In this document: piece after piece, positions 9,576 through 63,380 of the stretch
Layout: the number at the start of each line of letters is the position of its first letter
How positions within the stretch are numbered: position 1 is the first letter of the stretch
Source: Plumapathes pennacea
Lineage: Eukaryota > Cnidaria > Anthozoa > Antipatharia > Myriopathidae
DNA: 64,000 bases
Assembly (NCBI GenBank): GCA_964036295.1
Contig: OZ038467.1
Location: forward strand, 14,905,670 to 14,969,669
Direction: 5' to 3'
Made by a program: the position numbers and the translations under genes
The notes under the pieces: generated by a model
What the model was told of the DNA's origin: nothing
Seen by the model: the letters and a program-made list of their open reading frames with translations, nothing else
Database searches by the model: none

Positions 9576-11905
9576 TCATTCCAGGGCACCTTGATAGTCA
9601 GCCAGCTGAAACTGTGTGAAGCCAAGCTGGTCATAAGAGCGGGCTGTGTCTTCATGTTCTCCGAGTAATTTCTGTCGCATTACTAGTGCTTCTTTGTGTG
9701 ATTCCAGGGCACCTTGATAGTCAGCCAGCTGAAACTGTGTGCAGCCAAGCGAGTGGTAAGAGCGGGCTGTGTCTTCATGTTCTCCGAGTAATTTCTGTCG
9801 CATTACTAGTGCTTCCTTGTCTGATTCCAGGGCACCTTGATAGTCAGCCAGCTGAAACTGTGTGCAGCCAAGCGAGTGGTAAGAGCTGGCTGTGTCTTCG
9901 TGTTCTCCGAGTAATTTCTGTCGCATTACTAGTGCTTTCTTGTGTGATTCCAATGCACCTTGATAGTCAGCCAGCTGAAACTGTGTGCAGCCAAGCCCGT
10001 GGTAAGAGCTGGCTGTGTCTTCATGTTCTCCGAGTAATTTCTGTCGCATTACTAGTGCTTCCTTGTCTGATTCCAGGGCACCTTGATAGTCAGCCAGCTG
10101 AAACTGTGTGCAGCCAAGCGAGTGGTAAGAGCTGGCTGTGTCTTCGTGTTCTCCGAGTAATTTCTGTCGCATTACTAGTGCTTTCTTGTGTGATTCCAAT
10201 GCACCTTGATAGTCAGCCAGCTGAAACTGTGTGCAGCCAAGCCCGTGGTAAGAGCTGGCTGTGTCTTCATGTTCTCCGAGTAATTTCTGTCGCATTACTA
10301 GTGCTTCATTGTCTGATTCCAATGCACCTTGATAGTCAGCCAGCCGAAACTGTGTGAAGCCAAGCGAGTGGTAAGAGCTGGTTGTGTCTTTATGTTCTCC
10401 GAGTAATTTCTGTCGCATTACTAGTGCTTCCTTGTGTGATTCCAGGGCACTTTGATAGTCAGCCAGCTGAAGCTGTGTACAGCCAAGCTCGTGGTAAGAG
10501 CTGGCTGTGTCTTCGTGTTCTCCGAGTAATTTCTGTCGCATTACTAGTGCTTCCTTGTGTGATTCCAGGGCACTTTGATACTCAGCCAGCTGAAACTGTG
10601 TGCAGCCAAGCGAGTGGTAAGAGCGGGCTGTGTCTGCATGTTCTCCGAGTAATTTCTGTCGCATTACTAGTGCTTCCTTGTGTGATTCCAGGGCACTTTG
10701 ATAGTCAGCCAGCTGAAACTGTGTGAAGCCAAGGTCGTGGTAAGAGCGGGCTGTGTCTGCATGTTCTCCGAGTAATTTCTGTCGCATTACTAGTGCTTCC
10801 TTGTCTGATTCCAGGGCACTTTGATAGTCAGCCAGCTGAAGCTGTGTACAGCCAAGGTCGTGGTAAGAGCGGGCTGTGTCTGCATGTTCTCCGAGTAATT
10901 TCTGTCGCATTACTAGTGCTTCCTTGTGTGATTCCAGGGCACTTTGATAGTCAGCCAGCTGAAACTGTGTACAGCCAAGCTCGTGGTAAGAGCTGGCTGT
11001 GTCTTCGTGTTCTCCGAGTAATTTCTGTCGCATTACTAGTGCTTCCTTGTGTGATTCCAGGGCACTTTGATAGTCAGCCAGCTGAAACTGTGTACAGCCA
11101 AGCTCGTGGTAAGAGCTGGCTGTGTCTTCGTGTTCTCCGAGTAATTTCTGTCGCATTACTAGTGCTTCCTTGTGTGATTCCAGGGCACTTTGATAGTCAG
11201 CCAGCTGAAACTGTGTACAGCCAAGCGAGTGGTAAGAGCGGGCTTTGTCTTCGTGTTCTCCGAGTAATTTCTGTCGCATTACTAGTGCTTCCTTGTGTGA
11301 TTCCAGGGCACTTTGATAGTCAGCCAGCTGAAACTGTGTGCGGCCAAGCGAGTGGTAAGAGCGGGCTGTGTCTTCATGTTCTCCGAGTAATTTCTGTCGC
11401 ATTACTAGTGCTTCCTTGTGTGATTCCAGGGCACCTTGATAGTCAGCCAGCTGAAACTGTGTCCAGCCAAGCGAGTGGTAAGAGCGGGCTGTGTCTTCAT
11501 GTTCTCCGAGTAACTTTTGTTGCATTACTAGTTCTTCCTTGTGTGATTCCAGGGCACCTTGATAGTCAGCCAGCTGAAACTGTGTACAGCCAAGGTCGTG
11601 GTAAGAGCGGGCTGTGTCTGCATGTTCTCCGAGTAATTTCTGTCGCATTACTAGTGCTTCCTTGTGTGATTCCAGGGCACCTTGATAGTCAGCCAGCTGA
11701 AACTGTGTCCAGCCAAGGGCGTGGTAAGAGCGGGCTGTGTCTGCATGTTCTCCGAGTAATTTCTGTCGCATTACTAGAGCTTCCTTGTGTGATTCCAGGG
11801 CACTTTGATAGTCAGCCAGCCGAGACTGTGTACAGCCAAGCTCGTGGTAAGAGTGGGCTGTGTTTTCATGTTCTCCGAGTAATTTCTGTCGCATTGTTAC
11901 AGCGT
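9576..11905 (-). repeat. 123-bp tandem repeat (TPR array of receptor A)
   Basis: About 19 units of exactly 123 bp encode 41-residue TPRs of the form MRQKLLGEHEDTA..YH.LG.TQFQLADYQ.ALESHKEALV (dots variable). Units are nearly identical. Around 9780-10270 a two-unit (246-bp) block, alternating HKK and DKE types, is itself repeated. The opposite strand is open over long stretches as a by-product of the repeat. Confidence 0.93.
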
Positions 11906-14900
11906 TGGTATACGACTCTAGGGCGCCTTCATGGTCACCCTTTTGGAACTGCGCTGTCCCCAAAAGATGATATATGTTTGCCTTCTGGGTGTCGTTGTCT
12001 TGGAACAGTTGCAATATGTTCTTGTAGCCCTGAACAGCTTGGTTAAATTCGCCAAGGTGTACAAGAACTACATTGACAGTTAGGTAGAAAGGACTTACAC
12101 ATACCTCATCTTTAAGAGAAATTTCCAGGTATCTACGAATTGCTAAGACGTACTCTGTCATAATATCTTTAGCCTCATGAATGTTGAGTTTCTTTAAAAC
12201 AGCACTAAACAAATATATCATTTCCAGTATGAATGGTTGATCTTCGACAGCTGCATTCCCAGTCTTCTCCTTTAAGAACAAAGCAGGAACATGTGATACA
12301 TTTGTTGCAGGTTTTTCGTGCGTTTTGTGAGGAGATGTTTCCCGAGATGATTTTGGTAATCTGTCGCACAGTTCGAGAATGTTTCTGGTTAGTAGCTTTG
12401 TCACAGAGTTCGTTGCTTTCTCTGTTGGGATTTGATACGCACTTTGAAGAAGCTCCACTCCTTCGTCTGTTTCACCACGGATTATTAGATCAATCCCTTG
12501 GTAGTACTGAAGTCTTTCATTCAGTTCAACAGGGTGAATGTCCTGCAGCAGCTCTTTTGCTTCTTGCAGCAGCCTTTTGCTTTTTCCGTCAGACCATGTT
12601 ATATACCCAAATGCTTTGGAAAGAAGAAGTTTGAAGTGGTCTGATGTTTGTTGTCGATGCCGAGCTTGCTTAATTGCATTGTCATAAATGTTTTCAAATG
12701 TTTTGGAATCATTATAGTTGATGACACTTAAAAACATTTCTGCTTGTGACAATACACTAACAGCAGTAGTGTAACGTTCTTCAGTTAAGATGCCCTTCAA
12801 AAGAGACTGGATTATGTTCTGATGGTCGACCAAGAACAATCGATAAGCTAGTGAAGACTGCCCTGTGTGAAACTGTGCGTTCAACCTCTCTAATAGGGAA
12901 AGGTAGTGACCAAAGAAGCGACTTTTGGCATCTTGAAACATTTGTTTCATTTCGTCGTTTCTTTTGGCATCCTGAAAAATTTCTTTCATTTCGCCGTTCC
13001 CAATCGATTCGCCAAAGGATCGCAACAATGGATGGATTGTGACTGAGCTATTAAGAGAACTGTGCTGCACTAAGGACTTCAATTCCAATTCTTTTAAAAT
13101 TGTGGCGCCTGCCAACTGTTTCTTCACGTCTAGAACAGCCATTGCGGCGAGGAAATCAAAATAGCCATGGAAAACTGACAAAGAAACAAATGCTTTTTGC
13201 TGCTTAGTTGAAAGACTGCGAAAACAATGTTCAAAGATAACTTGCAGATGGAGTTCTTTTGGGAAGTTGGGCATGTTCAGAACATATAATGCGGTGGAGC
13301 TTATTTCAGCCATCAGCTCTTTCCAATTCGGCTGGAGTCTTCCATTTGTGCTGACAATTGAGGAGACAAGCCTTATGGCTAGAGGAACATCGCCACTTGC
13401 TTTTGTGATGGAATCAATGGCGTCGTCTGGGGCGTCTGGTAGAATCTTCCGCACCAATTCTTTGGACGCAGAATCATCCAACGGTTTGACTCTCACCGGG
13501 GCAGTAGAAAACCAGTCGTTTGCGAGGGATTCTCGTGTGGTAAGCAGCAGCTTAACCTCCTTGGAAGATCTCAGCACCTCCCGCAGAAACTTTAAAAGCT
13601 CCTCTTTATTTGCCAATAAATCGTCTGCATTGTCAAGCAGCAGATAAAGGGGGCTTAAAACTGAGGAAAGCCATTGCAGTACTCTGTCTCGTGCTTTTTC
13701 CTCGGGCGTGTGCTCACTCTGCGGAGACAAGGTGAGGATTCTTTGGGCCATCTCACTAACTGACTTCACCTCTTCAAGAGATATGGACAGCACAACGTGT
13801 CCTTGTGAGTCGAGTTCGTGTCCCACAGCAGTCGCTACAGACGTCTTTCCAAATCCCGGCGAGCCCCACACGCTCACCAGGCGCGTGGGTTCGTTGGTCA
13901 GGTGATTGATAATTTCATTACATTCTTTGACACGTCCAGTGAAGTGAGAGATCATGGGAAGAAGGCGTGATTTGAGTTTAAGGGAAGGGGGATGTCCTGG
14001 AAACATAATTATAATTGCTAAGGATATAAATTATATTGATGATCTATACGGAATGCACTTTATCACAACATCCTGCCACTACCTTAAAAAGGTTCAAAGG
14101 ACGTTTTTCTGGTGAACGTGTATAACAAATACAGATGAAAAACTGACGGATATACAAATACCATATACCATGCATCCTGTAGCCAGGTAGCTGACAACTA
14201 AATAGTTTTCGGCTCACCTTTCAGAAAAACCTTCAGGTCCTCTAATGTCTCCTGCAACTTGTTTAAGTCTCCCTTGACATCTTCAATACCTTCTTGAAGC
14301 TTCAACTTTGCATGAAACTCTACCAAAAGACGTTCCAGCAATCTGTTCACTTTCTTTGTTGGGAAGTCTTCCTGTTTCATTCCCCTGATGTTGTCGATGG
14401 TTCCTGTGCTCAGCCCAAGAGCGGTGAAAGCATCTTTAGCAAGCTTCGCATAATGGTCAAAGGTCTTCTTATCAATGCTCCTAGTTGAAGCCTGGTGAAA
14501 AAGAGCGTTCCTCAGCCGACGTAGCTGATCAATGGCCAGAGTGCACGTTTCATTGTTGTCACCAGTGCTGCTATTCACAGTCGTGTGGAATTCTCTACTT
14601 GGCAACTTCAAAGGTTCCACGTACAGATCACTCAAGGTCTTGAAGTGGCCACTGGACGCATCTGGCAATTTGAAATAATCCGCGAAGATTATGGCTTGGG
14701 ACAGAGCGGTGCAGTCCCAGTCTTTGTAGGACTTGTCTGTGGGGATCTTGCACTTGGCGCCCTTTTTAGTCTTGACATAGTTCCGGACAGCAACTGAGTC
14801 ATCCCAGGGCAGGTTGGTTGGCGGCCCAGCATATCGGTTGTTCCAAAGGGAAACAAACGTTTTACGTATAGCCTCAGGAAACTCATCCAACACAATAGCT

Positions 14901-14950
14901 GCGAACTTGAAGTAGTTCAGCTGCTGATCAGTTAGTCTGTACAGAGACAT
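9576..14950 (-). CDS. Receptor A: HEPN - NB-ARC - TPR STAND protein (NLR-like)
   Basis: The exons are 14950-14218 and 13996-9576, giving 1717 residues. Exon 1 (MSLYRLTDQQ) is a DZIP3-like HEPN domain whose R147-N-x3-H152 (14495-14512) fits the Rx4-6H active site of HEPN RNases, followed by a heptad-like coiled coil at about 205-243. It ends in phase 1 at donor GTGAGC; the acceptor GTTTCCAG restores GGA. Exon 2 holds the P-loop GSPGFGKT (about 289-296), Walker B LLLDNADD (about 363-370), TTR sensor (about 397-399), GDVPLA and IHPLL (about 565-569), as in NB-ARC plus winged helix. About 350 helical residues and then about 20 TPRs of 41 residues follow. The role as a cytosolic immune sensor with RNase output is inferred. 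The array ends at a TGA where other units have a Ser codon (TCA), so the tail is shorter than the ancestral array. It is the best-preserved copy together with D. Confidence 0.87.
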
Positions 14951-19764: not shown

Positions 19765-21327
19765 TGCCTGACAGCTTGATGGTCAGCTAGCTGGACTGTA
19801 TATATGCAGCCAAGTGTGCCGTAAGAAAAGGATGTCTTTTCATGATCTCCGAGTGCTTTTTCTCCGCATTGTTATACAGCTATAGTAAATCAGACTTAAA
19901 GGCGCCTCCATAATCAGCTAGCTGAAAATTTGTGTTACCAATGTTGTTATAAAAGTTGGATGTCTTCATGATCTCCAAGTAACTTCTGCCTCGTTGCTAC
20001 AGCTTTAGTAAAGAACCCTCGGGCAACTTAGTGATAGCTGGCTACCCGGAACTGTGTACAACCAAGATCGTTGTATATATCTGAGCTATTGTTCTCCGAT
20101 TAATTTCCATCTCATGACTACAACTGTAGTGAGTGAGTCCAGAGAGTCTTGATAGTCAGCTAGCAGAAACTGTGTATCCAAGGTTATTGTAACCGTGTAA
20201 GATCGGGATGTCTCCAAGTAATGTTTGTCGCATCGGTACAGCTTTGGTGTGTGATTCCAGGGCACTTTGACAGTCAGCCAATTGAGACTGTGTGCAGCCA
20301 AGCTTGCCGTAAGAGCTGTATCTTTGTGTTTTCAGGGTAATTCTTGTCAACTCTGTCGCATGCTACAGTTTTGATGTGCAACTTCAGAGTATTTGGCCAA
20401 TACTGTGGAGTGTGCACAGCGAAGTGGGAGTTGCAAAAGAGGGTTTTGCGTTCGTGTTTTCCGAGTAATTTCTGTGGCATTGTTCCAACTTTGGTGTGTT
20501 ACTCCAGGACATTGTGGTAGTCAGCCGTCGCGTCGCACGCAGCTTTACGTTTCGAGAAGATATCAGCACATCTCGCAGACAGTTTGAACTATCTTCTTCA
20601 CATTCTTCCAAATCATCTGTATTGTTAAGAAATACAGATAGAAGGAGATTAAAACCGAGAAAAGCCGTGATTGCAATACTCTGCCTTATGCAGTTTCCTT
20701 GAACGATGTTTGTTCACTTTGCGGACACAAGGTGACGTTTTTTGGGCCATCTCACTGACTTACTTTCGCAACAGTCGCTATGTGACGTCTTTCTATATCC
20801 CGGCGAGCCCCACACGCTCACCAGCCGCGTGGTTTGGATGGTCAGGTGATAGAAATGATATTATCACACTCCTGTAGGCTGAGCATTACTGCAGCTTTGG
20901 TCAGTGTTTCCAGCGCATCCGTGTAGTCATAAAACTGCAACTCTGTCATACAACCAAACTCAGTGCAATGTCAGACATCTGGCATTCGCATCACTATTGC
21001 ATTACTAATTATTCCAGAGCAGTCTTCTTTAAGCTGTTTTGATAAGCTCGTCCTGAGAGCGGGCTTTAACTTCATTTTCTCTGGGTAAATTTGGGCCCAA
21101 TAACGCTTCGAAGCTAGATCAATATGTGATTATTCCAGCCTAAATGTGAACCACTAGTGTGAACAGTCCAGTGCGTTTTCATCATCGCAAATGCGCGTCA
21201 GTATCATTTTTGCATTGATCACAGTACCGATCTCAAATTGATTTCAGCTGGCAATCCTTGACATGTTACTCAATAGCATCTTGATAGTCAGTTATAGCCG
21301 AATATCTGTTTCATTTTGGCCACGGTT
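19765..21327 (-). pseudogene. Relic F: decayed NB-ARC/TPR receptor
   Basis: On the - strand, 19765-20470 contains TPR fragments in several frames, each only one or two repeats long. At 20580-20680 the Walker B neighbourhood (AATCATCTGTATTGTTAAG on +) is recognisable. At 20700-20860 the region coding GHxLDSQ to the P-loop and SVWG is present but internally deleted, with the P-loop codons damaged. Stops and frameshifts are frequent. It is an older relic than B, C or E. Confidence 0.75.
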
Positions 21328-22023
21328 TTAGTCAACAGACAAAGCGGCCAGTTCGTGTTCTTTGAGTATTTTCTGTCGCAATGCTGCAGCTTCGGTGAAT
21401 CCCCCTGAGGCACCTCGATAGTCAGTCAGCATACACATGGCGGCCCTAAGATTGCTGTAAGACTTGACTGTGTCTTCGTGTACTTCAAATAGTCTCTGCC
21501 GTATTGCTAGAGCTTCAGTGTGTGACTCTATAGCACCTTTATAGTCAGCCAGCTCAAACTGTGCGCACCCAAGGTTGCTGTAAGACTGGGCCGTATCTAC
21601 ATGTTCTCCGAGTAGTTTCTGCCGCATTACTAGAGCTTTGGTATGCGACTCCAGGGCACCATGATAGGCACCCAGCTCCAACTGTGCGCAGCCAAGGTTG
21701 CAGTAAGATTGGGCTGTGTTCTTGTTTTCTCCGAGTATTTTCTGTCGCATTTCTACAGCTTTGGTGTACGATTTCACAGCACCTTTGTAGTCGTCCAGTG
21801 AATTTTGTGCGCCGCCAAGGTCGTTGTAAGAGCAAGCTGTGGCTTTATGTTCTCCAAGTAATTTTTGTCGCATTGCTGCAGCTTTGGTCTGTAACTCCAG
21901 AGCCCCTTGATACCAACGGAAACGCGCATTTTCGTCCTGTGAGTCAGCCAGCTTATACTGTGCGCGGCCAAGGTTCCTGTAAGAAAGGGCTGTGTCTTTA
22001 TGTTCTCCAAGTAATTTCTCCAT
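21328..22023 (-). pseudogene. Relic F TPR tail: open frame of about five TPRs
   Basis: The 231-codon open frame runs from KLLGEHKDTALSY to the family C-terminus KILKEHELAALSVD. The repeats are of the NLGCAQFELADYQGALESHTKA subtype also seen in E. One repeat carries a 10-residue insertion (DENARFRWYQ region). No HEPN or NB-ARC exon is joined to it: the frame starts abruptly at 22023, where the segmental duplication begins. It was probably cut off from its 5' part by that event. An alternative is a small TPR-only protein. Confidence 0.6.
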
Positions 22024-22042
22024 TATCGTTATTTACAATTTG

Positions 22043-23952: not shown

Positions 23953-24429
23953 ACTCATGTCGCCGTCCGATTAATTTCAGTCAGCCACTTTTACTGCTTT
24001 AGTATATAAATCCATTGCTTGTTCGCAAATATAGTTATCACCTTTATAGTTTCTTCATGTATTCCAGTAATTTATGCTTCAGTCTTCAGTGTTACTAACA
24101 GCTTTGTCGAATGATCTGGGCCACCATCATAACCAGCCAGCACTGCGTCAGGCAAACGTTGCCCATACGACCCAGTGTGTTGATGTTCTTCCTTTTAATA
24201 TCCTCTCCATTTTAAAGCTTTCGCGAGTGTCTCCGGAGTACCTTGATGGTCAGCCAAGCTTGTTGTTATGAATAATTTGCTAGCTGGAACTTGTGCAGCC
24301 AAGCTCAATGTCATAGCTGGTTCAATCTTCATGTTTTACGAGTAATTTTTGCTCGAGCATTCGTGTGCGAATTTCGGGCACCTTCATAGTCAGCCAGCCG
24401 CTTCAATGTGCAGCCAAGACGTGCCTGGC

Positions 24430-25090
24430 CTTCATGTTCTCTGAGTAATTTCTGTCGCATTACTAGTGCTTCCTTGTGTGATTCCAGGGCACCTTGATAG
24501 TCAGCCAGCCGAGACTGTGTGCAGCCAAGCGAGTGGTAAGAGCGGGCTGTGTCTTCATGTTCTCCGAGTAATTTCTGTCGCATTACTAGTGCTTCCTTGT
24601 GTGATTCCAGGGCACCTTGATAGTCATCCAGCCGAAACTGTGTGCAGCCAAGCTCGTGGTAAGAGCGGGCTGTGTCTTCATGTTCTCCGAGTAATTTCTG
24701 TCGCATTACTAGTGCTTCCTTGTGTGATTCCAGGGCACCTTGATAGTCAGCCAGAAGAAACTGTGTGTAGCCAAGGTCCTGGTAAGAGCGGGCTGTGTCT
24801 TCATGTTCTCCGAGTAATTTCTGTCGCATTACTAGTGCTTCCTTGTGTGATTCCAGGGCACCTTGATAGTCAGCCAGCCGAAACTGTGTGCAGCCAAGCG
24901 AGTGGTAAGAGCGGGCTGTGTCTTCATGTTCTCCGAGTAATTTCTGTCGCATTACTAGTGCTTCCTTGTGTGATTCCAGGGCACCTTGATAGTCAGCCAG
25001 CCGAGACTGTGTGCAGCCAAGCGAGTGGTAAGAGCTGGCTGTGTCTTCGTGTTCTTCGAGTAATTTCTGTCGCATTGTTACAGCGTTGGT
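24430..25090 (-). repeat. 123-bp tandem repeat (TPR array of receptor B)
   Basis: About five to six 123-bp units in the same register as those of A, all of the YQGALESHKEALV type. This is far fewer than in A, although the flanking sequence is nearly identical. Confidence 0.9.
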
Positions 25091-27666
25091 ATGCGACTCT
25101 AGGGCGCCTTCATGGTCACCCTTTTGGGACTGCGCTGTCCCTAAAAGATTATATATTTTTGCCTTCTGGATGTCGTTGTCTTGGAGCAGTTGCAATATGT
25201 TCTTGTAGCCCTGAACAGCTTGGTTAAGTTTGCCAAGATGTACAAGAACTACATTGACAGTTAGGTAGACAGGTCTTACACATACCTCATCTTTAAGAGA
25301 AATTTCCAGGTATCTACGAATTTCTAAGACGCACTCTGTCATAATAACTTTAGCCTTCTGAATGTTGAATTTCTTTAAAACAGCACTAAACAAATATATC
25401 ATTTCCAGTATGAATGGTTGATCTTCGACAGCTGCATTCCCAGTCTTCTCCTTCAAGAACAAAGCAGGAACATGTGATACATTTGTTGCAGGTTTTTCGT
25501 GCGTTTTGTGAGGAGATGTTTCCCGAGATGATTTTGGTAATCTGTCGCACAGTTCGAGAATGTTTCTGGTTAGTAGCTTTGTCACAGAGTTCGTTGCTTT
25601 CTCTGTTGGGATTTGATACGCACTTTGAAGAAGCTCCACTCCATCGTCTGTTTCACCACGGATTATTAGATCAATCCCTTGGTAGCACTGAAGTCTTTCA
25701 TTCAGTTCAACAGGGTGAATGTCCTGCAGCAGCTCTTTTGCTTCTTGCAGCAGCCTTTTGCTTTTTCCGCCAGACCATGTTATATACCCAAATGCTTTGG
25801 AAAGAAGAAGGTTGAAGTGGTCTGATGTTTGTTGTCTATGCCGAGCTTGTTTAATTGCATTGTCATAAATGTTTTCAAATGTTTTGTAGTCATGCCAGTT
25901 GATGACACTTAAAAACATTTCTGCTTGTGACAATACACTAACAGCAGTAGTGTAATGTTCTTCAGTTAAGATGCCCTTCAAAAGAGACTGGATTATGTTC
26001 TGCTGGTCGACCAAGAACAATCGATAAGCCAGTGAAGACTGCCCTGTGTGAAACTGTGCGTTCAACCTCTCTAATAGGGAAAGGTAGTGACCAAAGAAGC
26101 GACTTTTTGCATCTTGAAACATTTGTTTCATTTCGTCGTTTCTTTTGGCATCCTGAAAACTTTCTTTCATTTCGCCGTTCCCAATCGATTCGCCAAAGGA
26201 TCGCAACAATGGATGGATTGTGACTGAGCTATTAAGGGAAATGTGCTGCACTAAGGACTTCGATTCCAATTCTGTTAAAACTGAGGTGTCTGCCGGGTGT
26301 CCCTTCACGTCTAGAACAGCCATTGCAGCGGGGACATCAAAATAACCATGGAAAACTGACAAACAAACAAATGCTTTTTGCTGGTCAGTTGAAAGGCTGC
26401 GAAAACAATGTCCAAAGATAACTTTCAGATGGTCCTTTGGGAGGTTGGGCGTGTTCAGATTATGTAATGCGGTGGAGCTTATTTCAACCATCAGTTCTTT
26501 CCAATTCGGCCAGAGTGTTCCACCTGTGCTGACAATTGTGGAGACAAGCCTTATGGCCAGAGGAACATTGCCACTTGCTTTTGTGATGGAATCAATGGCG
26601 TCGTCTGGGGCCTCTGGTAGAATCTTCCGCACTAATTCCCTGGACGCAGAATCACGCAACGGGTTGATTCTTACAGTGGCAGTAGAAAACCAGGCGTTCG
26701 CACGCTTGAGGGATTCTTGTGTGGTGAGTAGCAGCTTAACCTCCTTGGAAGATGTCAGCACTTCTCGCAGGAACTTTAAAAGCTCGTCTTTGCTTGTCAA
26801 TAAATCGTCTGCATTGTCAAGAAACAGATAGAGGGGGGTCGAAACCGAGGAAAGCCATTGCAGTACTCTGTCTTTTGGTTTTTCCTTGGACGTGTGTGCA
26901 CTCTGCGGAGACAAGTTGAGAATTTTTTGGGCCATCTCACTGACTGACTTCACTTCTTCAAGAGATACGGACACCACAACGTGTCCTTGTGAGTCGAGTT
27001 TGTGTCCCACAGCAGTTGCTGCAGACGTCTTTCCAAATCCTGGCGAGCCCCACACGCTCACCATCCGCGTGGTTTGGTTGGTCAGGTGATTGATGATGTC
27101 ATCACACTCTTTGACACGTCCAGTGAAGTCAGGGATCATGGGCATGGGGTGTGATTTGAGTTTAAAGGAAGAGGGATGTCCTGGAAACATAATTATAATT
27201 GTTAAGGATATAAATGAGATTGCTGGTCTATACGGAATGCACTTTATCACAACATTCTGCCACTACCTTAAAGAGGTTCGAAGGACCTTTCCTGGTGTAC
27301 ATGTATAACAAATAATAGATCAATGACTTTTTAACAGGACAATTTATGTTTAAATATCATCAGAATAACTTACCACGATTATTTGACAATTTTAAAATTT
27401 AAATGAGGATATACATTCATACAATACAAGGAATTGCAAGAACATCTACCGAAACCATAACAAAACAAATTATGGAGTTCATAGCCTAAAAAATAAAGGA
27501 GGCAAACTTTGGAATGAACTACCTGAAAATCTGAAAAGCTTACAGTATTCACTCAAAAAATTTAAACAAATGCTAAAAAAATTATAGAGGAAAAAACTTA
27601 TCAATAATATTCAATTATGTTTTGCATACCACCCAATAACAAATTCTTACTCAAGATAAATAAGCT

Positions 27667-27970: not shown

Positions 27971-28093
27971 CTTATTATTTTTATTCTTATCTTTATCCTT
28001 ATTCTTATTATTCTTATTATTTATTATTTATTCTTATTCTTATTCTTATTCTTATTATTTATTCTTATTCTTATTCTTATTCTTTACTATTAC

Positions 28094-28144
<51 letters not shown>

Positions 28145-28165
28145 AATTATTATTATCATCATCAT
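27966..28165. repeat. Low-complexity (TTATTC)n / (TTA)n tract
   Basis: About 200 bases of TTATTC and ATT repeats followed by CATCAT. They give spurious Tyr/Leu/Ile-rich ORFs in all frames. Confidence 0.95.
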
Positions 28166-29204
28166 CATTATTAGTTTATTATCACCATTATATTTATTAT
28201 TACAAATCTTTTTATGGTGATATCTAAGAAAAATTAGGCATACCAATTACCTAATAAGAGATATTAACGATGGCTTATTAACAACTTATAAAAATCTTGT
28301 AACAAGGGGTCTCCTAGAAAAATACCAAGGTACTTTATGAGATCTCTTGTCGTATAGGAACAAATAAAATATGTATCTGATTATGGGTTTATATTAATAA
28401 AGGCGAATCATCATAAAAAAAAAAAAGATGAAATCTGACAGATGTAAAAAAAAAAACAAATACCATGCATCCTGTAGCCAGGTAGCTGACAACTAAATAG
28501 TTTTCTCACCTTTTATAAAATCCTTCAGCTCCGCTACTGTCTCTTGCAACTTTTTGATATTTTCTTGAAGCTTCAACATAGTACCAGCCTCTACCAAATA
28601 ACGTTCCAACAATGTCAACACTTTATTTGTTGGAAAGTCCTCCTCTTTCAACCCCTTGATGTTGTCGATGGTCGTTGTGCTCACCTCAAGAGCGGTGAAA
28701 GCATCTTTAGCAAGCTTCACATAACGGTCAAAGGTCTTCTTATCGATGTTTTGAATTGAGGCCTGGTGACAAGCGATGTTCCTCAGCCGACGTAGCTGAT
28801 CAATGGCCAGAGTGCACGTTTCGTTGTAGTTACCAGTGCTGCTCTTCACAGATATGTGGAAATCTGTCTCTGGCAAGTCTCCTACGCGGTACCGCCAACT
28901 CAAGGTATTTGGTTGGCGGCGACTAGTGAACGACGTAGCATAAATGGTAGCCTTGAACAATGCGGTGCAGTCCCAGTCTTCGTAGGAGAGGTGGGTGGGA
29001 ATGTCGCATATGTCAGGTCCGCCTTCATTGGTGTTGAGCTGGTTCCGCACAGCATCCGAGTCATCCCAGGGCAGGTTGGTTGGTCGACCAGCATATCGCT
29101 TGTTCCACAGGGAAACAAACGTCTTACGCAGAGCCTTAGGAAACTCGTCAAGCACAAAAGTTGCGAACTTGAAGAAATTCAGCTGTTTGTCCGTAAATAG
29201 GCAT

Positions 29205-42697: not shown

Positions 42698-42713
42698 GCT
42701 TGGCATGCGCTGC

Positions 42714-43931
42714 CTGTGGTGCAGCCAAGGTCGTTGTGAGAGCAGGCTTTGTCTTTATGTTCTCTGAGCAAATTAATTTGGGCTTATTTACGCTGGGAAG
42801 TTAGATTGATCTCAGATCTATCCAGGATAAATGCGAACCAAGGAAACAAGAAAACTGAGGAAAGCCATTGCAATACTGTGCTATTCGCAGTTCCATCGAT
42901 TTTTGGTCAGTCTGTTGAGACAGAGTGAGGATTCTCTTGGCCATCTCACTCACTGACTTCGCTTGTCGAAGAGATTAAAAAACACGTGTCCTTTTGGATG
43001 GAGTTTGTCCCACAGCAGTCGCTGCAGACGTCTTTCCAAATCCAAGGGAACCCCAAACGCTCACCAGCCGCGTGGGTTTGGTTGGCCAGGTAATCTACAG
43101 TATGATGAAATCACATTCCTGCAGGCTCAGCATTGCTACAGTTTTGGTCAGTGCTTCCACCGCATCCCTGTACCGATAAAGCTGCAACTCTGCCCTACAG
43201 CGAACGTCGCTTAAGATAATGCAATTTCACGCACCTGGCTTTCGCAACTGCCGCATTGTTGCAGCTTTTCAGAATATAACTTATAACTCCAGAGCATTGT
43301 CTTATTGAAAGTGTGCTTTTCAAAGCTCGCTGTGACAGAAGGCTATATCTTCATAGTCTCAATACATTTGGGCACATTCTTGCTGGAAAACTAGATCATT
43401 CTCGGATCAGTGCTTTTTTGTTGTCAAACACGCGCGCTACGATCTTGGCATCAATCACAGTACCGACCTAAGATTGATCCCACCTTAGCGATCCGTACGT
43501 CATGAGTCCCTTTACTATGTCCCTCCAGAGCATCTTAATACCAATCAGTTATAGCCGAAACTGTGTGTAGCCACAATTTTAGTCAACAGACCATGCGGCC
43601 AGCTCGTGCTCTTTAAGTACTTTCTGTCGTATTGCTGGGGGCTATATCTTCATGGTCTCAATAAATTTGGGAACGTTCTTGCTGGAAAACTAGATCAGTC
43701 TCGGATCAGTGCTTTTTTGTTGTCAAACACGCACGCTACAATCTTTGCATCAATCACAGTACCGCAAAGGGACAACTACTGCACACTACTTGGTGGGGGC
43801 TTGGACTGGGTCCCGGTACTTCGTCATCAATCCTTTACCATGTCGCTCCAGAGCATCTTGATAATCAGTTTTAGCCGAAACTGTGTGTAACTGCCACGGT
43901 TTTAGTCAACAGAGAATGCGGCCAGCTCGTG
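42714..43931 (-). pseudogene. Relic G: decayed receptor fragments
   Basis: 42720-42770 is a TPR fragment. 42860-43120 matches the Walker B to P-loop region of D in reverse order on the - strand, with the P-loop reading damaged by substitutions in the GFGKT codons, and with stops. 43560-43640 and 43850-43931 are two copies of the family 3' end (VLKEHELAA.SVD), part of a local duplication of about 290 bp (43570-43640 and 43640-43900 share long words). No open reading frame spans the remains. Confidence 0.7.
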
Positions 43932-46900
43932 TTATTTAAGTACTTTCTGTCGTATTACAGTAGCTTTGGTGTGTGAATTCAAGGCACCTCGCCAGTCAGC
44001 TAGTAAAAACTGTGCAACTCCAAGGTTTTCGTAAGATTTAGCTGTGTCTTCGTGTTCTCCGAGTAATTTCAGTCGCATTGCTACAGCTTTGGTGTATGAC
44101 TCTAGGGCACCTTGATAGTCAGCCAGATATAACTGTGTGCTGCCAAGCTCAATGTAAGATAGGGCTGTGTCTTCATGTTCTCCAAGTAGTTTTTCTCGCA
44201 TTACTAGAGCTTTCTTGTATGCTCCCAGGGCACCTTCATAGTCAGCCATCCGATACAGTGTTACACCAATGTTGTGGTATGTGCTAGCTGTGTCTTCATG
44301 TTCTCCGAGTATTTTCTGTCGCATTGCTAGAGCTTTCTTGTACGCTTCCAGGGCACTTTCATAGTCAGCCATCCGATACAGTGTTACACCAATGTTGTGG
44401 TAAGAGGTTGCTGTGTCTTCATGTTCTCCGAGTAGTTGTTGTCGCATTGAAAGAGCTTTCTTGTTGGCTTCCAGGGCACCTTCATAATCAGTCATCAAAA
44501 ACAGTGTTCCACCAATGTAGTGGTAAGAGGTTGCTGTGTCTTCATGTTCTCCGAGTAGTTTCTGTCGCATTGCTAGAGCTTTCTTGTACGCTTCCAGGGC
44601 ACCTTCATAGTCAGCCATCCGATACAATGTGATACCAATGTTGTGGTATGTGCTAGCTGTGTCTTCATGTTCTCCGAGTATTTTCTGTCGCATTGCTAGA
44701 GCTTTCTTGTATGCTTCCAGGGCACCTTCATAGTCAGCCATCCGATACAATGTGACACCAAGCTCGCAGTAAGAGCTAGCTGTATCTTTATGTTCTCCGA
44801 GTAGTTTCTGTCGCATTGCTAGAGCTTCCTTGTGGGATTCCAGAGAACTTTGATAGTCAATCATCTCATACTGTGTGCAGCCAAGCTCTTTGTAAGATGT
44901 GGCTGTGTCTTCATGTTCTCCGAGTAATTTCTGTCGCATTACTAGAGCTTTCTTGTATGCTTCCAGGGCACCTTCATAGTCAGCCATCCGATACAGTGTT
45001 TGACCAGTGTTGTGGTAAGAGCTAGCTGTGAGTTCATGTTCTCCGAGTAATTTCTGTCGCATTGCTAGAGCTTTCTTGGATGCTTCCAGGGCACCTTCAT
45101 AGTCAGTCATCCGATACAGTGTTTGACCAGTGTTGTGGCAAGAGCTAGCTGTGAGTTCATGTTCTCCGAGTAATTTCTGTCGCATTGCTTGAGCTTTCTT
45201 GGATGCTTCCAGGGCACCTTCAAAGTCAGTCATCCGATACAATGTTCTACCAATTTTGTGATAAGAGGTAGCTGTGTCTTCATGTTCTCCAAGTAGTTTC
45301 AGTTGCATTGCTAGAGCTTTCTTGTCTGCTTCCAGAGAACCTTGATAGTCAGCCAGTTGATACAATGTTTCACCAATGTTGTGGTAAGAGTTAGCTGTGT
45401 TTTCATGTCCTCCGAGTATTTTCTGTCGCATTGCTAGAGCTGTCTTGTGTGCTTCCAGGGCACCTTTATAGTCGGCCATCCGAAACAGTGTTGCACCAAT
45501 GCTGTGGTAAGAGTTAGCTGTGAGTTCATGTTCTCCGAATATTTTCTGTCGCATTGCTAAAGCTGCCTTGTTGGATTTCAGTGAACCTTGATAGTCAGCC
45601 AGCTGATACTGTGTCCAGCCAAGCTCGTTATAGGAGCGGGCTGTATCTTCATGTTCTCCGAGTAATTTCTGTCGCATTACTAGAGCTTTCTTGTGTGATT
45701 TCAGGGACCCTTTATAGTCAGCCAGCCGATACTGTGTGCAGCCAAGCTCGATGTAAGAGTGAGCCGTCTGTTCATGTTCTCCGAGTAATGCTTGTCGCAT
45801 TTTCGCAGCTTTGGTTTTAGATTGTAGGGCACCTTCATGATCACCTAGTTTGTGCTGCACTACACCCAAACACTGATAGGTTTCTGCTTTGTAAACTGTA
45901 TCTTCATTTGGGCTTGCTCTATTTTGAGACTGGAGTATCTTCTCGTAGCAGTGAAGAGCTTGCTTGTATTGATTGAGGTGCAGGAGTAACGAACTGACAG
46001 CGTGGTAGAGTGAACTAAGACGAACCTCATCTCCGAGAGAATCCTCCACTTGTCTTTGAATATTTAAGACGAACTTTGCCATATTTTCCATTTCTTTTAA
46101 GGTGTTCAACTTTTCACAAACTGCATTGAACAAGTACACCATTTGTAGCATGAATGGTTGATCTTCCTCAATTGCATTCTTTGACATCTCCGAATTCAGA
46201 AAACAAAAAGTAGAAACATGTCCTTCATCCAACATGTCTTTTTCTGAAATAATGTTTTCATCCGACAAACTTTTGTTGCATAGTTCTAGAATGCTTTTCG
46301 TAAGCACTTTAATGACAGAGTTCACTGCACTTTCACTTAGGATAGAATATGCAGCTTGAACACATTTCATTCCATCTTCTGTTTTACCGCGTATAACAAG
46401 ATCGATCCCTCGGTAGCATTGAAGTTTCCCTTTTGTCTCAGCTGAGATGGAATGAGCGTCGTATTGCTTCTCAGCTTCTTGAAGTAAGTCTGCACTCTTT
46501 TTACCTTCTCGTCCCCTGGTGAGGAAAGCAAAAGCCTTAGAAACCAGAAGTTGGGTGCAGTCGGATGCTTCATGTCCTGCCTGCGCTGACTTGATTGCGT
46601 TTTCATAAATGTCTTCAAATTGTGAAGTATCATTCCAAAAGATCGACGCCAGAAGCATTTCTGATTCTGATAGCGCACTAACAACAGTTGTGTAGTGTTC
46701 TTCAGTTCGTATTCCGTTCAAGAGAGATTGAATTATGTTCTGCTGCTCCATCTGGAAGACTTGACATGCGGTAGATGACTTTTCAGCAAGGAACTCCTTG
46801 TTAAGTTTCTCTAGCACTTCCAGGTAGTAGCCATAAAAGCGAATTTTAGCATCATGGAAGATTGTTTTCATTTCTGTTTCTCCAATCAATTCTCCAAACG

Positions 46901-49437
46901 ACTGCAGCAATGGATGGATTGTGTACAACATGCTATCTGCATCGTACTCTAATAGGGATTGCCGCACGATTTCATTTAAAACCTTCTTGGTTGCCAACGA
47001 TTTCTTTGCGTCTAAAGCAGCCATTGCAGCGTCCAGACTGAAGAATCCGTTAAATACAGACAAACAAACAAATGCACTTTGCTGATCAAAGCTAAGTTTT
47101 CGAAAGCAATGTTCAAAGAGAGATTTCAAGCGGAGATCTTCTGGGTTGTCGGGCATGTCCAGAGCTTCCATGGTACTAGAGCTTAATTCGTTTGTGAACT
47201 CGTTCCAGTGGGGAGAGAGTTTTCCGTTTTCAGTGACAATCGAGCAGACAAGTTTTATGGCCAGAGGAACATCGCCACAGATCTTCGTAATGGCATCAGC
47301 GTCATTGTCACTGACATTTGGTGCAAGATTCTGAACCAGTGTCCGAGATGAAGCCTTGTCCAATGGTTGGATTCTGACCGAAGCAGTGGGAAACGAGTGC
47401 TTAGCGTACTCGAGGGATTCCCGTGTGGTGCACAGCAGTTTAACCGTTGTGGAAGAGGCAAGGATATCTCGAATAAACTGTAGATATTCGTCCTTGTTTT
47501 CCAACAAATCATCTGAGTTGTCAAGAAACAAGTAGAGGGGTATTGAAACCGAAGAAAGCCACTGCAATACTTTGCTTTTCTCAGTTTCATTCTGGAACGG
47601 TGGTTGGTCACTCTGTTGAGACAAACTGAGGATTCTTTGGGCCATCTCACTCACTGACTTCACTTGTCGAAGAGATATAAACAACACGTGACCAACTTGT
47701 GAGTCGAGATCGTGTCCCACAGCAGTCGCTACAGACGTCTTTCCAAATCCCGGCGAGCCCCACACGCTCACCAGCCGCGTGAGTTGAGTGGTCAGGTGGT
47801 ACATGATCTCATCACATTCTTTGGCACGACCAATGAAATGAGGAACCATGGGAAAGAGGTGTGACTTGGGGAGTTTGGAAGAGGGTCTTTGTTCTGGAAC
47901 AGCATCGTAAAATGTCAAGAAAAACAAAATTAGATATCTACGGTACGGTACGCAATTGATCAAAAATGCCCTGTGGCTATTTGCGTAAGAATTTGAAGAG
48001 GATAATTTTATGGTGTGCATGTATAAAACAAAAACAAAGTATTTCATAAAATTTGCGGCGGGAAGTAAGTTAAACAAGACTGGTTTCCTGCCAAGATGTT
48101 GTGCCCCGCGAATACAGCTGCCTTAGCACGAAACTACTGGTGTTTATCGGGGCAGCTTTTGACCCCCCTTCCCCCAGAGATTATCGCCGCTAAATTAGTG
48201 TCGACCAAAGTTTCTGTGACGACATAGAAAACCCCTGAGAAGATGCTAGGCCGAATTCATATCGTATCTCGGCTGAAGGGAGCGAATAAAATCCATTTCC
48301 AGTAAAGTGTTTACATGCCATATACTAATTAGTCAAGTGGAGATGATGAGCCCGATCGACTCCTCTCTCGAAGTAAACGCGCTCAAAAGCTCACAAAATG
48401 GACTTCTCTTGCCTAATTTATTTTCGAAATATCGCAGAAATATAGTAGCATTACAAAGAGAATATTCCGTATACAAGCTAAGTAGAACCATTGTGGAAAT
48501 ATAAAGCATTTCAAATGGCACAAACACGGTAATGCGACGATGCCATTACAACGCGAATGCTCAAGACGTCACGATGCATTTGAACAATGGCTACGAAGAA
48601 GGCGCGTCAACCAATTAGAGCGTAATACTTGGCGAGATACATAGACAGATATAACATGCATGTTAACCAAGTAATTGACATACTGTAAACTGTATTAATC
48701 TCACCTCTCAGAAAATTTTTCAGTTGATGCCCTAGGCCCTCTACGGTCTCTTGCAAATTCTTTAGGTCTCCCTTGATATCTTCCATACCTTCTTGAAGCT
48801 TTAGCAGAGCACTGGTCTCTACCAAAAGACGTTCCATCAATCTGTGCACCTTTTTTGTTGGGAAGTCTTCCTGTTTCAACCCCTTGATGTTGTCAATGGT
48901 CGCTGTGCTCAGCCCAAGAGCAGTGAAAGCATCTTTAGCAAGGTTTGCATAAGAATCAAATGTCTTCTTATCAATACCCTTAGTTGAGGCCTGGTGACAA
49001 GCAGTGTTCCTCAGCCGACGTAGCTGATCAATGGCAAGAGTGCACGTTTCGTTGTAGTTACCAGTGCTGCTCTCCACAGTCATGTGGAACGTTCCTCCTG
49101 GCAAACTTCCTGCGTACAAACTACTCAGGGTTTTCGGTGGGCGGCCACTAGTGAACGACTTAGCGTAAATGGTAGCCTTGAACAATGCGGTGCAGTCCCA
49201 GTCTTTGTAGGAGAGGTGGGTGGGAATGTCGCATTTGCCATGTCCGCCTTCATTAGTGTTGAGCTGGTTCCGCACAGCAACTGAGTCATCCCAGGGCAGG
49301 TTGGTTGGTGGACCAGCATATGGGTTGTCCCACAGGGAAACAAACGTCTTCCGCAAAGCCTCTGGAAACTCATCCAGTACAATTGCGGCGAACTTGAAGT
49401 AGTTCAGCTGTTTATCCGTGAGTGTGTACAGAGGCAT
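43932..49437 (-). CDS. Receptor D: HEPN - NB-ARC - TPR STAND protein (NLR-like)
   Basis: The exons are 49437-48705 and 47893-43932, giving 1564 residues. Exon 1 starts MPLYTLTDKQ and encodes the DZIP3-like HEPN domain with R-N-T-A-C-H and a terminal coiled coil. Donor GTGAGA and acceptor GCTGTTCCAG join in phase 1 (G+AA). Exon 2 has P-loop GSPGFGKT, Walker B LFLDNSDD, TTR, GDVPLA and IHPLL, a helical middle region, then about 16 TPRs of 41 residues. Many are of a YHNIG.TLYRMADYEGALEAYKKAL subtype not seen in A or B. The frame ends in TAA where relic F and C have the GAA of the KEHEL..SVD tail, so about ten residues are lost; this is unlikely to matter for the fold. Exon 1 and intron resemble C, while the 5' flank resembles A/B. 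Function as for A: inferred nucleotide-switched immune sensor with RNase effector. Confidence 0.87.
43980..45860 (-). repeat. 123-bp tandem repeat (TPR array of receptor D)
   Basis: About 15 units of 123 bp are more diverged from one another than those of A. The DYEGALEAYKKALAMRQK subtype is locally amplified at about 44200-45250. Confidence 0.9.
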
Positions 49438-59251: not shown

Positions 59252-62200
59252 TCAAGCAAACTGTGCGCAGCCAAGGTGGTAGTAAGAGTGGGCTGTATCT
59301 TCATGTTCTCCTAGTATGTGCTGTCGCATCGCTACAGCTTTTGTGTGAGAATCAACAGCTCCTTTGTAGTCAGCGAGGCGAAACTGTGCAGAACCAAGTT
59401 CACTGTAGGAGTGGGCTGTGTGTTCATGTTCTCCTAGTAACTTCTGTCGCATCTCTGCAGCTCTGGTGAGTGATTCTAGGGCACCTTCATGGTCACCATT
59501 CTTGAACTGCAACATTCCTAAAGCATGATAGATGCTTGCTTTCTGAATGGCATCCTCTTGATACAGCAACATTTTCGTCAAGCCTCGAATTGCTTGGTCG
59601 ACTTCGCCGAGTTTTGCAAGAACTCCGTTGACAGTGGTGTAGAAAGGACTGACACAGACCGCGTCTCCCAGAGAAATCTCCAGTTGTGTACGAATCTCCA
59701 AGACGCACTTCGTCATAATTTCCTTGGGCTTCTTAATTTTGACTCTTTTGCAAACTGCATTAAATAAGAAAATCATTTGCAGCATAAAGGGTTGATCTTC
59801 CCCAGGTGCATTCCCTGGCATCTCCATAAAAAGCAAAGTAGGACTATTTTGAACATCTGATGGAAATTCTTCGTCGGTTTTTTGAGGACATGTTTGCGGA
59901 TTCTTTGGCACACTGTCGCACAGTTCAAGAAGTTTTTTAATAAGTACCTTTGTCACAGAGGTAATGGCTTTCTCTACTTGGATTGCATAAGCACCTTGAA
60001 GAAGCCTGACTCCATCATCTGTTTCACCACGGATTATTAGATCAATCCCTTGGTAGCACTGAAGTCTCTCTTTCATCTCAACAGGAAAGGAATGCATGTC
60101 TTGCAACTTCTCAGCTTCTTGTAGAAGCCTTTTGCTTTTCCCGTCAGACCATGTTAAATACACAAACGCTTTGGAAACAAGATGTTGGAAGTGGTCTAGA
60201 GCTTGTTGTCGGTCCTGCGCTTGCTCGATTGCATCGTCGTAAAGCTCCGATAAAGTTGCATTGTCATACCAGAAGATCAAGTCCAGGAACATTTCTGCTT
60301 GTGACAATACTTGCACGGCTGTATCATAGTGTTTGTCAGATGTGATTCCTTTCGAAAGAGACAATATTATGCTCTGCTGGTCTTTCAAAAACAGTCGTAA
60401 AGCCGATGAGGACTGTCCTGTGTGAAACTGTGTGTTCAACATCTCTAAAACGGAAAGGTAGTAACCAAAGAAGCGACTTTTGGCATCCTGAAATACTTGT
60501 TTCATTTCTTCGTCTCCAATCGATACGCCAAAGGACCGCAACAACGGATGGATTGTGACTGAACTATCAAGAGAATCTCGCTGCAGTAAGGACTTCATTT
60601 CCAATTCTTTTAAGATCTTGTTGATAGCCAGTTCTTCCTCCAGGTTTAGAACAGCCATTGCAGCGGGGACGTCAAAAGAGTCATTGAAAACTGACAAAGA
60701 AACAAATGCTTTTTGCTGGTCAGTTGAAAGACTGCGAAAACAATGTTCGAAGAGAACTTTGATGCGGAATTCATCGGGATAAATGGACGTGTTTAAACCA
60801 TCTGTGGGACTGGAGCTTATTTCAATCATCATCTTTTTCCAATTCGGACAGAGCCTTCCATCTGTGCTGACAATTGAGCAGACAAGCTTTATAGCCAGAG
60901 GAACATCGCCACTTGTATTTGTGATGGAATCAATGGCGTCGTCAGGGGCCTTTGGTAGAATCTTCCGCACCACTTCTTTAGACGCAGACTTATCCAATGA
61001 GTTGATTCTCACTGTGGCAGTAGAAAACCAGACATCCGCAAATTCGAGGGATTCTCGTGTGGTGAGCAACAGCTTTACTTTCTGGGAAGATGTCAGCACA
61101 TCTCGCAGGAACTTTAAAAGCTCGTCTTTGCTTGCCAATAAATCGTCTGCATTGTCAAGAAACAGATAGAGGGGGATTGGAACCGAGGAAAGCCATTGCA
61201 ATACTCTGTCTTGTGCTTTTTCCTTGGATGTTTGTTCACTCTGCGGAGACAAGATGAGGATTCTTTGGGCCATCTCACTGACTGACTTCACGCCTTGAAG
61301 AGATCTAGACAGTACAACGTGTCCTTGTGAGTCTAGTTCGTGTCCCACAGCAACCCCTACAGACGTCTTTCCAAATCCCGGCGAGCCCCAAACGCTCACC
61401 AGCCGCGTGGGTTGGTTGGTCAGGTGATTGATGATTTCATCACATTCTTTGACACGTCCAGTGAAGTTAGGGATCTTGGGAAAAAGGTGTGACTTGAGGG
61501 GTTTGAAGAAGGGGCTTTGTTCTGCAAAAATCATTGAAAGTGAAAGAAAGTGGTAATTTACATTGCGCCATGTTGGAATAAATGCTGTAACTACTGAAAA
61601 TAGTTCTTAGGGATCTTTTATGATGTACATGTGCAACCTATTTCATAAAAACAGACATTTTTTTGATATTTAAAGATGAACAAAATAGCACATGTTCTAA
61701 AAGATCTGATACTGACTTAGGCGAGTAAGGTAGATTTTTTTCTTAGGAACAGGAAACTGTGCAGCGTGATTATCTTTTCTCTGGCGTACATTTACTAAAC
61801 AAGAACAAACTACTTTACAAGAACAAACATTTTCTGAAGAATAATAATAACTTTTAAATCTGAGAATGAGTTGGGGTAGTAAAGTCGATGTTTCTTAGCA
61901 GAATGAAATAAGCGAGTGGTCATTGTTTATGGGTAGGGGCGGCAAATACGTGGTGGAGGAGGGGGGGGGGGAGGCACAAAAAGTTTGGAGTGCTTTTGTA
62001 GGGGAAAGGGTCATCAAAGTTTTTACTTTCTCCTGGTGTGGGGTCATCAAAGTTTTGTCCTGTCCCTACCTCAAAATGTAGAAAACGCATCAGATATTCC
62101 AGAATTTCCCACAAGCACTTAAGGTCTTCCCACGTCCTTCCCCATTTGTCAAGAATCCCTGATTAAATGTTTATTTTGACTTTGTGTATTCCTCTCTTAG

Positions 62201-63380
62201 TTTTCTCTCAGTTTCAGAGTATGATTGTTATGAAAATATAAACCAGATGTAGAAAGAAGCCAGTGCCTAGTCCATTTGCCGGGATCTGACGTTGTCATAG
62301 ACTAGCTATTTTATTGTTATAAATATGAACGAAAAGTGCGTAAACACTGAACAATTCAAGACATTAACAATTCATCATTGTAAAAAATGAAAACTTCTGT
62401 GTGCTTTGAGTAGTGTTTTATCCTCTGCCTTCTTTCACACAACTTTACCTGGCATGTACACGGGTACCATTTATGAGGTGAGGAAGGAAAAATCTTTAAA
62501 CTGACTCCCACTAGTCGCCCTCCTCCCACCCTCCTCCCCCCCCCCCCCCCCCCCCCTCCCCACCATAAATAATGACTACTCCCTAAGGCCACTGTGTGGT
62601 GCAAACCTCACCTAGCAGGAAATTCCTCAAATCTTTTACATCACGTGCTGTCTCTTCCCAATTCTTTCCTTGTTTTTCCAATTTCGCCTTGATGTCTTCC
62701 ATATCTGCTGTGATGTCTGTCTGCAGAAACTTGATCATGGAACCCTGCTCTTCCAAAAGATGTTTCTGCAAACTCTGCACTTTCTCCGTTGGGAAATCTT
62801 CCTCTTTCAACCCCTTGATGTTGTCGATGGTCGCTGTGCTTAGCCCAAGAGCCGTGAAAGCATCCTCAGCATGCTTTGCATAAAGATCAAAGGTCTTCTT
62901 ATCGATGTTTTGAGTTGAGGCCTGGTGACAAGCAGTGTTCCTCAACCGACGCAGCTGATCAATGGCCAGAGCGCACGTTTCGTTGTGGTTACCAGTCCCG
63001 CTCTTTACAGCTGTATGGAGCGTCCTACTTGGCACAGGTAAAGGCCGCACGTACAGATCACTTAAGGTCTTCAAGTGGCCAGTTGCATCTGGTAATTTGA
63101 AGGAATCAGCGAAGATGGTGGCCTGGAACAGAGCGCTGCAGTCCCAGTCTTTGTAGGACTGGTTGGTAGGGATCTTGCACTTGGTCCCGCCCTCTTGAGC
63201 CTTGAGTTGGTTCCGGACAGCAACTGAGTCATCCCAGAGCGGGTTGGTTGGTGGACCAGCATATCGGTTGTCCCACAGGGAGACAAACGTTTTACGCAGA
63301 GCCTCAGGAAACTCATCCAACACTATAGTTGCGAACTTGAGGTAGTTCAGCTGTTCATCTGATAGTATGTACAGAGGCAT
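59252..63380 (-). CDS. Receptor E: HEPN - NB-ARC with truncated TPR array
   Basis: The exons are 63380-62612 and 61521-59252, giving 1012 residues. Exon 1 (MPLYILSDEQ) is a DZIP3-like HEPN domain with R-N-T-A-C-H and a coiled-coil end (256 codons plus phase 1, slightly longer than A and D). Donor GTGAGG and acceptor TTTTTGCAG join as G+AA. Exon 2 has GSPGFGKT, LFLDNADD, TTR, GDVPLA and IHPLL intact, and a well-preserved middle region. The array stops after about two and a half TPRs because a 5-base deletion near 59252-59260 turns CAGTTTGAGCTGGCT-type sequence into CAGTTTGCTTGA. Without it the frame would enter the long array to 56.6 kb. The product could be a functional short receptor or a recent pseudogene. 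The 5' flank is of the C type. Confidence 0.72.
61522..62611. other. Intron of receptor E
   Basis: It holds a short G-run at 61963-61974 and a C-run at about 62537-62556, but no recognisable exon. Confidence 0.6.

Follow-up and report, generated by a model that had tools for sequence, protein, structure and literature searches.

The anthozoan Plumapathes pennacea (Cnidaria, Antipatharia) carries a cluster of predicted receptor genes in which an N-terminal HEPN domain precedes an NB-ARC ATPase and a series of tetratricopeptide repeats (TPRs). We analysed a stretch of 64,000 nucleotides (nt) that contains this cluster (assembly GCA_964036295.1, contig OZ038467.1, positions 14,905,670 to 14,969,669), referred to below as the window. 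Its minus strand harbours five HEPN-type exons, denoted c1, c2, c3, c4 and c5. An initial annotation had described all five as genes of two exons, the first encoding a DZIP3-like HEPN domain with a coiled coil and the second NB-ARC with TPRs of 41 residues. The first exon and the repeat length agree with that description: the five minus-strand exons encode divergent relatives of HEPN_DZIP3 with a short coiled coil, and the repeat period is 123 nt, equal to 41 amino acids (aa). The two-exon plan holds for c1, c2, c4 and c5, which possess a full NB-ARC exon, but not for c3, in which NB-ARC is missing. What the present analysis adds, as judged from the sequence, is evidence that effector exons and receptor exons differ in their histories, together with one lineage that joins a second enzyme exon with an absent HEPN histidine.

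The array and its relatives

The gene c1 consists of exon 1 at 62612..63380 (HEPN and coiled coil, with the motif RNTACH) and exon 2 at 59252..61521, which encodes NB-ARC and the first TPRs and is open until a stop at 59252. Its spliced frame comprises 1,012 codons up to that stop; further TPRs follow in several other frames down to about 56616, a sign of damage. In c2, exon 1 (48705..49437; HEPN and coiled coil, with R143, N144 and H148) is followed by an exon 2 (43932..47893) that encodes NB-ARC and about 15 TPR units and is open throughout, giving a predicted spliced product of 1,564 aa. c3, whose HEPN is 90% identical to that of c2, is otherwise close to c2 but without NB-ARC; it retains exon 1 (38826..39549, RNTACH), a portion of the intron and remnants of TPRs that do not all share one frame (35712..36967). 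Exon 1 of c4 (28510..29206, RNIACH) lacks an in-frame ATG at the usual position, and together with exon 2 (24329..27180, NB-ARC and about 6 TPR units) forms a spliced frame of 1,182 codons without a start codon there; its intron includes about 76 copies of TTA (27972-28202). In c5, exon 1 (14218..14950, RNALFH) and exon 2 (9576..13996, NB-ARC and about 19 TPR units) yield a product of 1,717 aa that ends at a stop in mid-repeat, and repeat sequence extends past this stop to about 9426. To judge from these frames, only c2 among the five copies looks whole. Two sets of relics without HEPN lie on the same strand, an NB-ARC relic at 42811..43121 and a TPR and NB-ARC relic at 19962..22032 (TPR 22032-21463, NB-ARC 20854-20525, TPR to 19962).

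Exon 1 ends with AG/GTGAG in phase 1 in all five copies, and the introns of c1, c2, c4 and c5 (1090, 811, 1329 and 221 nt, respectively) are of the GT..AG type in four out of four cases, with the frame continuous across the joint. Loci elsewhere in the genome, which bear L numbers here, largely share this arrangement: NB-ARC is found behind the HEPN exon in 4/5 window copies and in 13 of the 16 other loci. Within the stretches examined it was not found in L038, L039 or L033; in the latter a TPR exon alone follows the HEPN exon after about 6 kb, with no NB-ARC found between them. A GTRAG donor terminates the HEPN exon in 10 of 15 loci examined (L033-L041 and L044), in phase 1 in all ten; in the remainder of this search L032, L045 and L046 gave no GTRAG match and L042 and L047 only unrelated ones. 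In L042 (503-2620) HEPN and NB-ARC share a single intronless frame with one in-frame stop in the NB-ARC part and with the coiled coil missing. We considered a spliced retrocopy and rejected it on account of the absent coiled coil and of a joint that does not coincide with the exon ends. Two relatives have a single, very long exon for NB-ARC and TPR, namely L034 (oriented 1675-9219; 2,515 codons open) and L040 (oriented 3138 to end; at least 2,254 codons open). The array itself extends beyond the window (C6:14974339-14998237) with a frame-shifted HEPN copy, L043, and another copy, L032, with NB-ARC and TPR.

The HEPN motif and the receptor half

HEPN_DZIP3 was the only Pfam family matched by all five window HEPNs at E<=1, with a best E of 0.00064. 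Eight canonical HEPN_DZIP3 domains from this genome, scoring 176-184 bits, served for a profile-profile comparison (hhalign), which gave an E of 4.2e-5 and a probability of 69.5 over 51 columns, placing R-N on R-N; the spacing before H is one residue longer in the canonical eight than in the window subfamily. The AlphaFold2 model (19 sequences; single chain) is mostly helical, with a pLDDT of 84.9 and a pTM of 0.85, and locates R143, N144 and H148 on helix 128-151, which also bears E130, D137 and R140, the remaining polar residues that are invariant. Several results speak against a straightforward assignment. Three window exons score 18-19.5 bits, short of the curated PF18738 (HEPN_DZIP3) cut-off of 27 bits; c3 and c4 are absent from the PF18738 listing at E<=0.01; the HEPNs of L042, L039 and L041 score 14.6-15.5 bits against the same cut-off; none of the 54 matches of a genome search with PF18738 corresponds to the five window HEPNs; and fold searches with the model gave no decision for or against the HEPN fold. 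The scores under the cut-off, taken with the profile-profile match, mean that the window HEPN is, by its sequence, a divergent relative of HEPN_DZIP3 and not a member of PF18738 by the family's own rule. The hidden Markov model check proposed in the initial annotation thus singles out HEPN_DZIP3 as the sole shared family, but below its cut-off. Viral contigs and prokaryote genomes were each scanned with two short peptide patterns, and no relative of this HEPN was confirmed there; tblastn of phage records returned none.

The R-N-x3-H motif is retained in all five HEPNs of the array, damaged copies included, as had been claimed. Shuffling the domain produces any Rx4-6H in 51% of cases, so that this looser pattern counts for little, and RNx3H in 1.1%. 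Invariance among five paralogues is weak evidence, because 113 of 263 columns are invariant in the window copies and the codons for R, N and H are identical. A search of the organism's own genome (290 Mb) for the subfamily returned 23 matches, a lower bound, which count as 21 loci with the window included (L025 and L030 form one locus, as do L029 and L031). A stronger test comes from 19 aligned rows taken from the window together with this genome, 43-91% identical to c2 and excluding the broken loci L043 and L047: R and N are two of only 23 invariant columns (19/19), and H is present in 17/19. When L043, with H, and L047, without H, are added, R-N stands in 21/21 loci and H, and therefore Rx4-6H, in 18/21. 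L044 retains H, and the H changes among the 19 rows amount to one loss. Across loci the three codons change synonymously (AGG/AGA, AAC/AAT and CAC/CAT).

These codon changes bear on a sceptical explanation, namely that the array is for the most part decaying and duplicating neutrally, and that its motif conservation reflects recent common descent. Most window copies are damaged (c1, c3, c4 and perhaps c5), which counts against a functional array; the relics at 42811-43121 and 19962-22032, the high likeness of the c5 TPR units (94%) and the identical R, N and H codons of the five copies would likewise suit neutral decay. We regard it as unlikely, however, since the pairwise ratio of non-synonymous to synonymous divergence (dN/dS) lies at 0.31-0.62 for HEPN and 0.36-0.66 for NB-ARC, c2 is open, as are some loci elsewhere such as L034 with its long exon 2, and the residues R, N and H are kept across loci while their codons vary.

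The receptor half fits its description as an NB-ARC/TPR NTPase of the STAND (signal transduction ATPases with numerous domains) class. NB-ARC (PF00931) exceeds its cut-off of 23.5 bits in both exon-2 proteins scanned (c2, 40.9 bits; c1, 35.7 bits), and the Walker A motif GxxGxGKT is found in 15/15 NB-ARC rows. TTQ occurs in c4, L035 and L042, TTR at the same place in c1, c2, c5 and four others; in five rows the pattern found neither. TPR units resemble one another within each array (c5 94%, c4 95%, c2 83% and c1 76%), edge or low-scoring units having been dropped before the count (1/19 in c5, 1/6 in c4, 2/15 in c2 and 5/23 in c1). Positions 2, 5, 6, 9, 12, 13, 33 and 34, which we take to line the TPR groove, are more variable than the rest in all four arrays (permutation p 0.0028, 0.0005, 0.0013 and 0.0001), and the proportion of non-synonymous differences (pN) is higher in the groove than in the rest of the TPR by a factor of 2.4 to 7. 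The ratio of pN to its synonymous counterpart pS exceeds 1 in the groove of just two arrays, c2 and c4, and the remainder of the c4 repeat is equally high. This variability is compatible with a diversifying ligand-binding surface, and is no proof of positive selection.

Exon histories and a trypsin-like exon

In the four copies that retain both exons the HEPN tree pairs c1 with c5 and c2 with c4, whereas the NB-ARC tree pairs c4 with c5 and c1 with c2; in the approximately unbiased (AU) test each data set rejects the other's tree (p 0.00085 and 0.00016). Synonymous divergence (dS) between c4 and c5 is 0.33-0.60 for HEPN versus 0.07-0.13 for NB-ARC, and between c2 and c4 it is 0.24-0.48 for HEPN versus 0.77-1.21 for NB-ARC (bootstrap 95% throughout); HEPN and NB-ARC do not differ in dS for c1-c5 and c1-c4. 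The switch in c4-c5 divergence falls within the intron. The mutual rejection of trees implies that HEPN and NB-ARC exons have assorted apart. An alternative, to which we give less than an even chance, is that no effector exon moved and the conflict arose when gene conversion made exon 2 of c4 and c5 alike: these two copies show 89-95% likeness over exon 2 and the final 119 nt of the intron, and only 78% in exon 1. A single conversion of this kind cannot by itself account for the c2-c4 pair, in which HEPN dS lies below NB-ARC dS, and under conversion too the join would sit in the intron. We read the exons as assorting apart on either account, movement of exon 1 or conversion of exon 2. The suggestion that the effector lies on an exon of its own is supported, this being a phase-1 exon with a history unlike that of the receptor exon; the idea that it can be swapped gains strength from a trypsin-like exon that stands behind the HEPN exon in three related loci.

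The three loci without H, namely L039 (Ser), L041 (Ile) and L047 (Ser), are exactly those with a Trypsin_2 (PF13365) exon behind the HEPN exon, according to a tblastn check that covered 17 stretches (L032-L048) as well as the window. All three trypsin exons score well above the cut-off of 27.6 bits (53.2-55.6 bits). The loci lie within about 75 kb on contig C1, and L039 and L041 form a clade with support of 100/99 (L047 stands outside that tree). By eye, both boundaries of the trypsin exon are in phase 1 in L039 and L047. Between L039 and L041 the HEPN dN/dS is 0.25, and among the trypsin exons of the cluster it is 0.28-0.50; these values fit constraint for some time. Other features of the cluster caution against making too much of it. 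As the loci form one cluster, the association of H loss with the protease exon represents one event, and 3/3 versus 0/18 does not stand for three. Moreover, all three appear damaged today, at least in part: L041 has no evident acceptor ahead of its trypsin exon and carries in-frame stops at exon-2 codons 848, 1308 and 1492, L039 is followed downstream by a retroelement-like open reading frame (ORF), with no NB-ARC found there, and the HEPN of L047 is split and contains a stop.

A genome search with the trypsin exon gave 32 matches, of which the nearest outside contig C1 are six near-full-length copies on contig C11 (60-68% identity). No match of this HEPN subfamily falls on C11, although canonical PF18738 has three matches at 14.2 Mb, at a distance of about 2 Mb. 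L049, the one C11 copy of the six that was viewed downstream, has a phase-1 donor and, ~1.2 kb further on, a phase-1 acceptor (both by eye), and the exon after that acceptor shows NACHT (84 bits, cut-off 26.7) and leucine-rich repeat (LRR) matches. L049 and the contig C1 loci together indicate that one kind of trypsin exon stands both before a NACHT-LRR receptor and inside HEPN-NB-ARC-TPR genes. A tentative and rather doubtful extension would be that the phase-1 intron is a socket for whole effector exons in animal STAND receptors, across receptor classes. On this proposal the kind of trypsin-like exon that also stands before NACHT-LRR would have entered HEPN-NB-ARC-TPR genes, and HEPN, freed of its enzymatic job, would have lost the catalytic H and stayed as a dimerising scaffold, the output changing from RNA cutting to proteolysis.

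Other sequences occur among the genes of the window. Between c1 and c2 (54395-55582, minus strand) lies a GT4-conflict glycosyltransferase exon (PF20706, 109.9 bits, cut-off 26) with no start codon before the domain. It was considered as a swapped-in effector and rejected, its acceptor being in phase 0 (by eye) instead of phase 1 and no NB-ARC/TPR lying behind it before c2. Three blocks, at 15.5-19.2 kb, 29.7-34 kb and 49.7-51.7 kb, precede the HEPN exons of c5, c4 and c2, respectively, and contain repeated units that are 73-92% alike between copies; four ORFs in or near them have no Pfam matches. Beside the array, an ORF at 7508-7918 on the plus strand matches von Willebrand factor A weakly (23.1 bits, cut-off 23.8).

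A proposed receptor mechanism and its setting

The exon plan, the ATPase motifs, R-N-x3-H across relatives, the groove variability and the separate exon histories can be read off the DNA directly, and from them we infer ligand binding, oligomerisation, RNA cleavage and an immune role. A working copy would probably be an intracellular receptor whose ligand-triggered NB-ARC brings HEPN dimers together to cut RNA. Such a receptor would run from an N-terminal HEPN through a short coiled coil and the NB-ARC ATPase switch to a C-terminal TPR superhelix. Ligand bound in the TPR groove would lead NB-ARC to open and oligomerise, gathering the HEPN domains as dimers, and the R-N-x3-H helices would then cut RNA, such that translation is stopped or invader RNA destroyed. 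The phase-1 intron between effector and receptor exons would act as a socket through which exons recombine among array members, with one lineage carrying a protease exon there and a HEPN without H.

HEPN could instead be a non-catalytic scaffold that dimerises or binds RNA, R-N-x3-H being kept for structure or RNA binding and the output passing through partner proteins. HEPN exons of the H-less lineage still differ mostly by silent changes (the L039-L041 dN/dS given above), and the HEPN scores fall under the Pfam cut-off, both of which speak for a scaffold. We nevertheless consider this rather unlikely, given that 18/21 loci retain H, even at an identity of about 43%, and that the loci without it all have another enzyme exon; an RNA-cutting HEPN remains the reading that we favour.

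The interpretation is, in outline, already in print: the accounts drawn upon here, each in part, treat DZIP3-like HEPN-NACHT/NB-ARC proteins as immune receptors with a putative RNase site and describe effector shuffling. Anthozoans encode 17 to 83 proteins that combine HEPN-DZIP3 with NACHT (PMC8260672); in corals a DZIP3-like HEPN is N-terminal and NB-ARC mostly occurs with TPR (PMC10236652); DZIP3 is fused to TPR, CARD, NACHT, DEATH and LRR (PMC3710099); and in oyster Rx4-6H is found in 194/202 proteins and taken as an RNase site, Rx4H being the commonest form (PMC9646362). As far as these accounts go, such cnidarian and bivalve DZIP3/hRUL138-like NOD-like receptors share with the array an N-terminal DZIP3-like HEPN, Rx4-6H, a STAND NTPase, repeats and expansion (PMC8260672, PMC10236652, PMC9646362, PMC3710099). 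The array differs from what they describe in its divergent HEPN under the Pfam cut-off, in the separate exon histories seen in the tree test and in an H-less sub-lineage with a trypsin-like exon. Effector shuffling among coral NOD-like receptors was described by Hamada et al. 2013 as summarised in PMC4083563; the passages of that summary used here name CARD, DED, Death and glycosyltransferase, not HEPN or a trypsin-like peptidase, and contain no exon-phase or tree-conflict test. In Acropora, TPR-CHAT and glycosyltransferase expansions have been reported (PMC12314368). The predicted order of effector, nucleotide-binding domain and repeats would be that of animal NOD-like receptors, here in four in-frame exon pairs with predicted splicing and with TPR, not LRR, as the repeat. 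Effectors of conflict systems include GT4, trypsin-like and HEPN domains (PMC8195603), and those bacterial conflict systems in which a HEPN or trypsin-like effector is combined with STAND follow the same logic, an enzyme effector joined to a STAND switch, often with repeats (PMC3710099, PMC8195603); they are prokaryotic genes and lack this exon plan. For HEPN-trypsin-NB-ARC genes no description was found in the titles and abstract starts of a partial literature search covering trypsin-like domains with NACHT/HEPN receptors, exon shuffling of NACHT effectors, and animal HEPN with NB-ARC and STAND.

The initial annotation describes something real: its observation is partly confirmed, and its interpretation is plausible and partly supported. 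Should HEPN prove to be the output, certain innate receptors of animals would act by an enzyme, as bacterial defence STANDs do, and not through death-domain adaptors. The missing H beside a protease exon constitutes a natural experiment that renders the idea of HEPN as the effector directly testable. Lastly, the shared exon phase may provide a large repertoire of receptors with a simple way to alter output while sensing stays unchanged.

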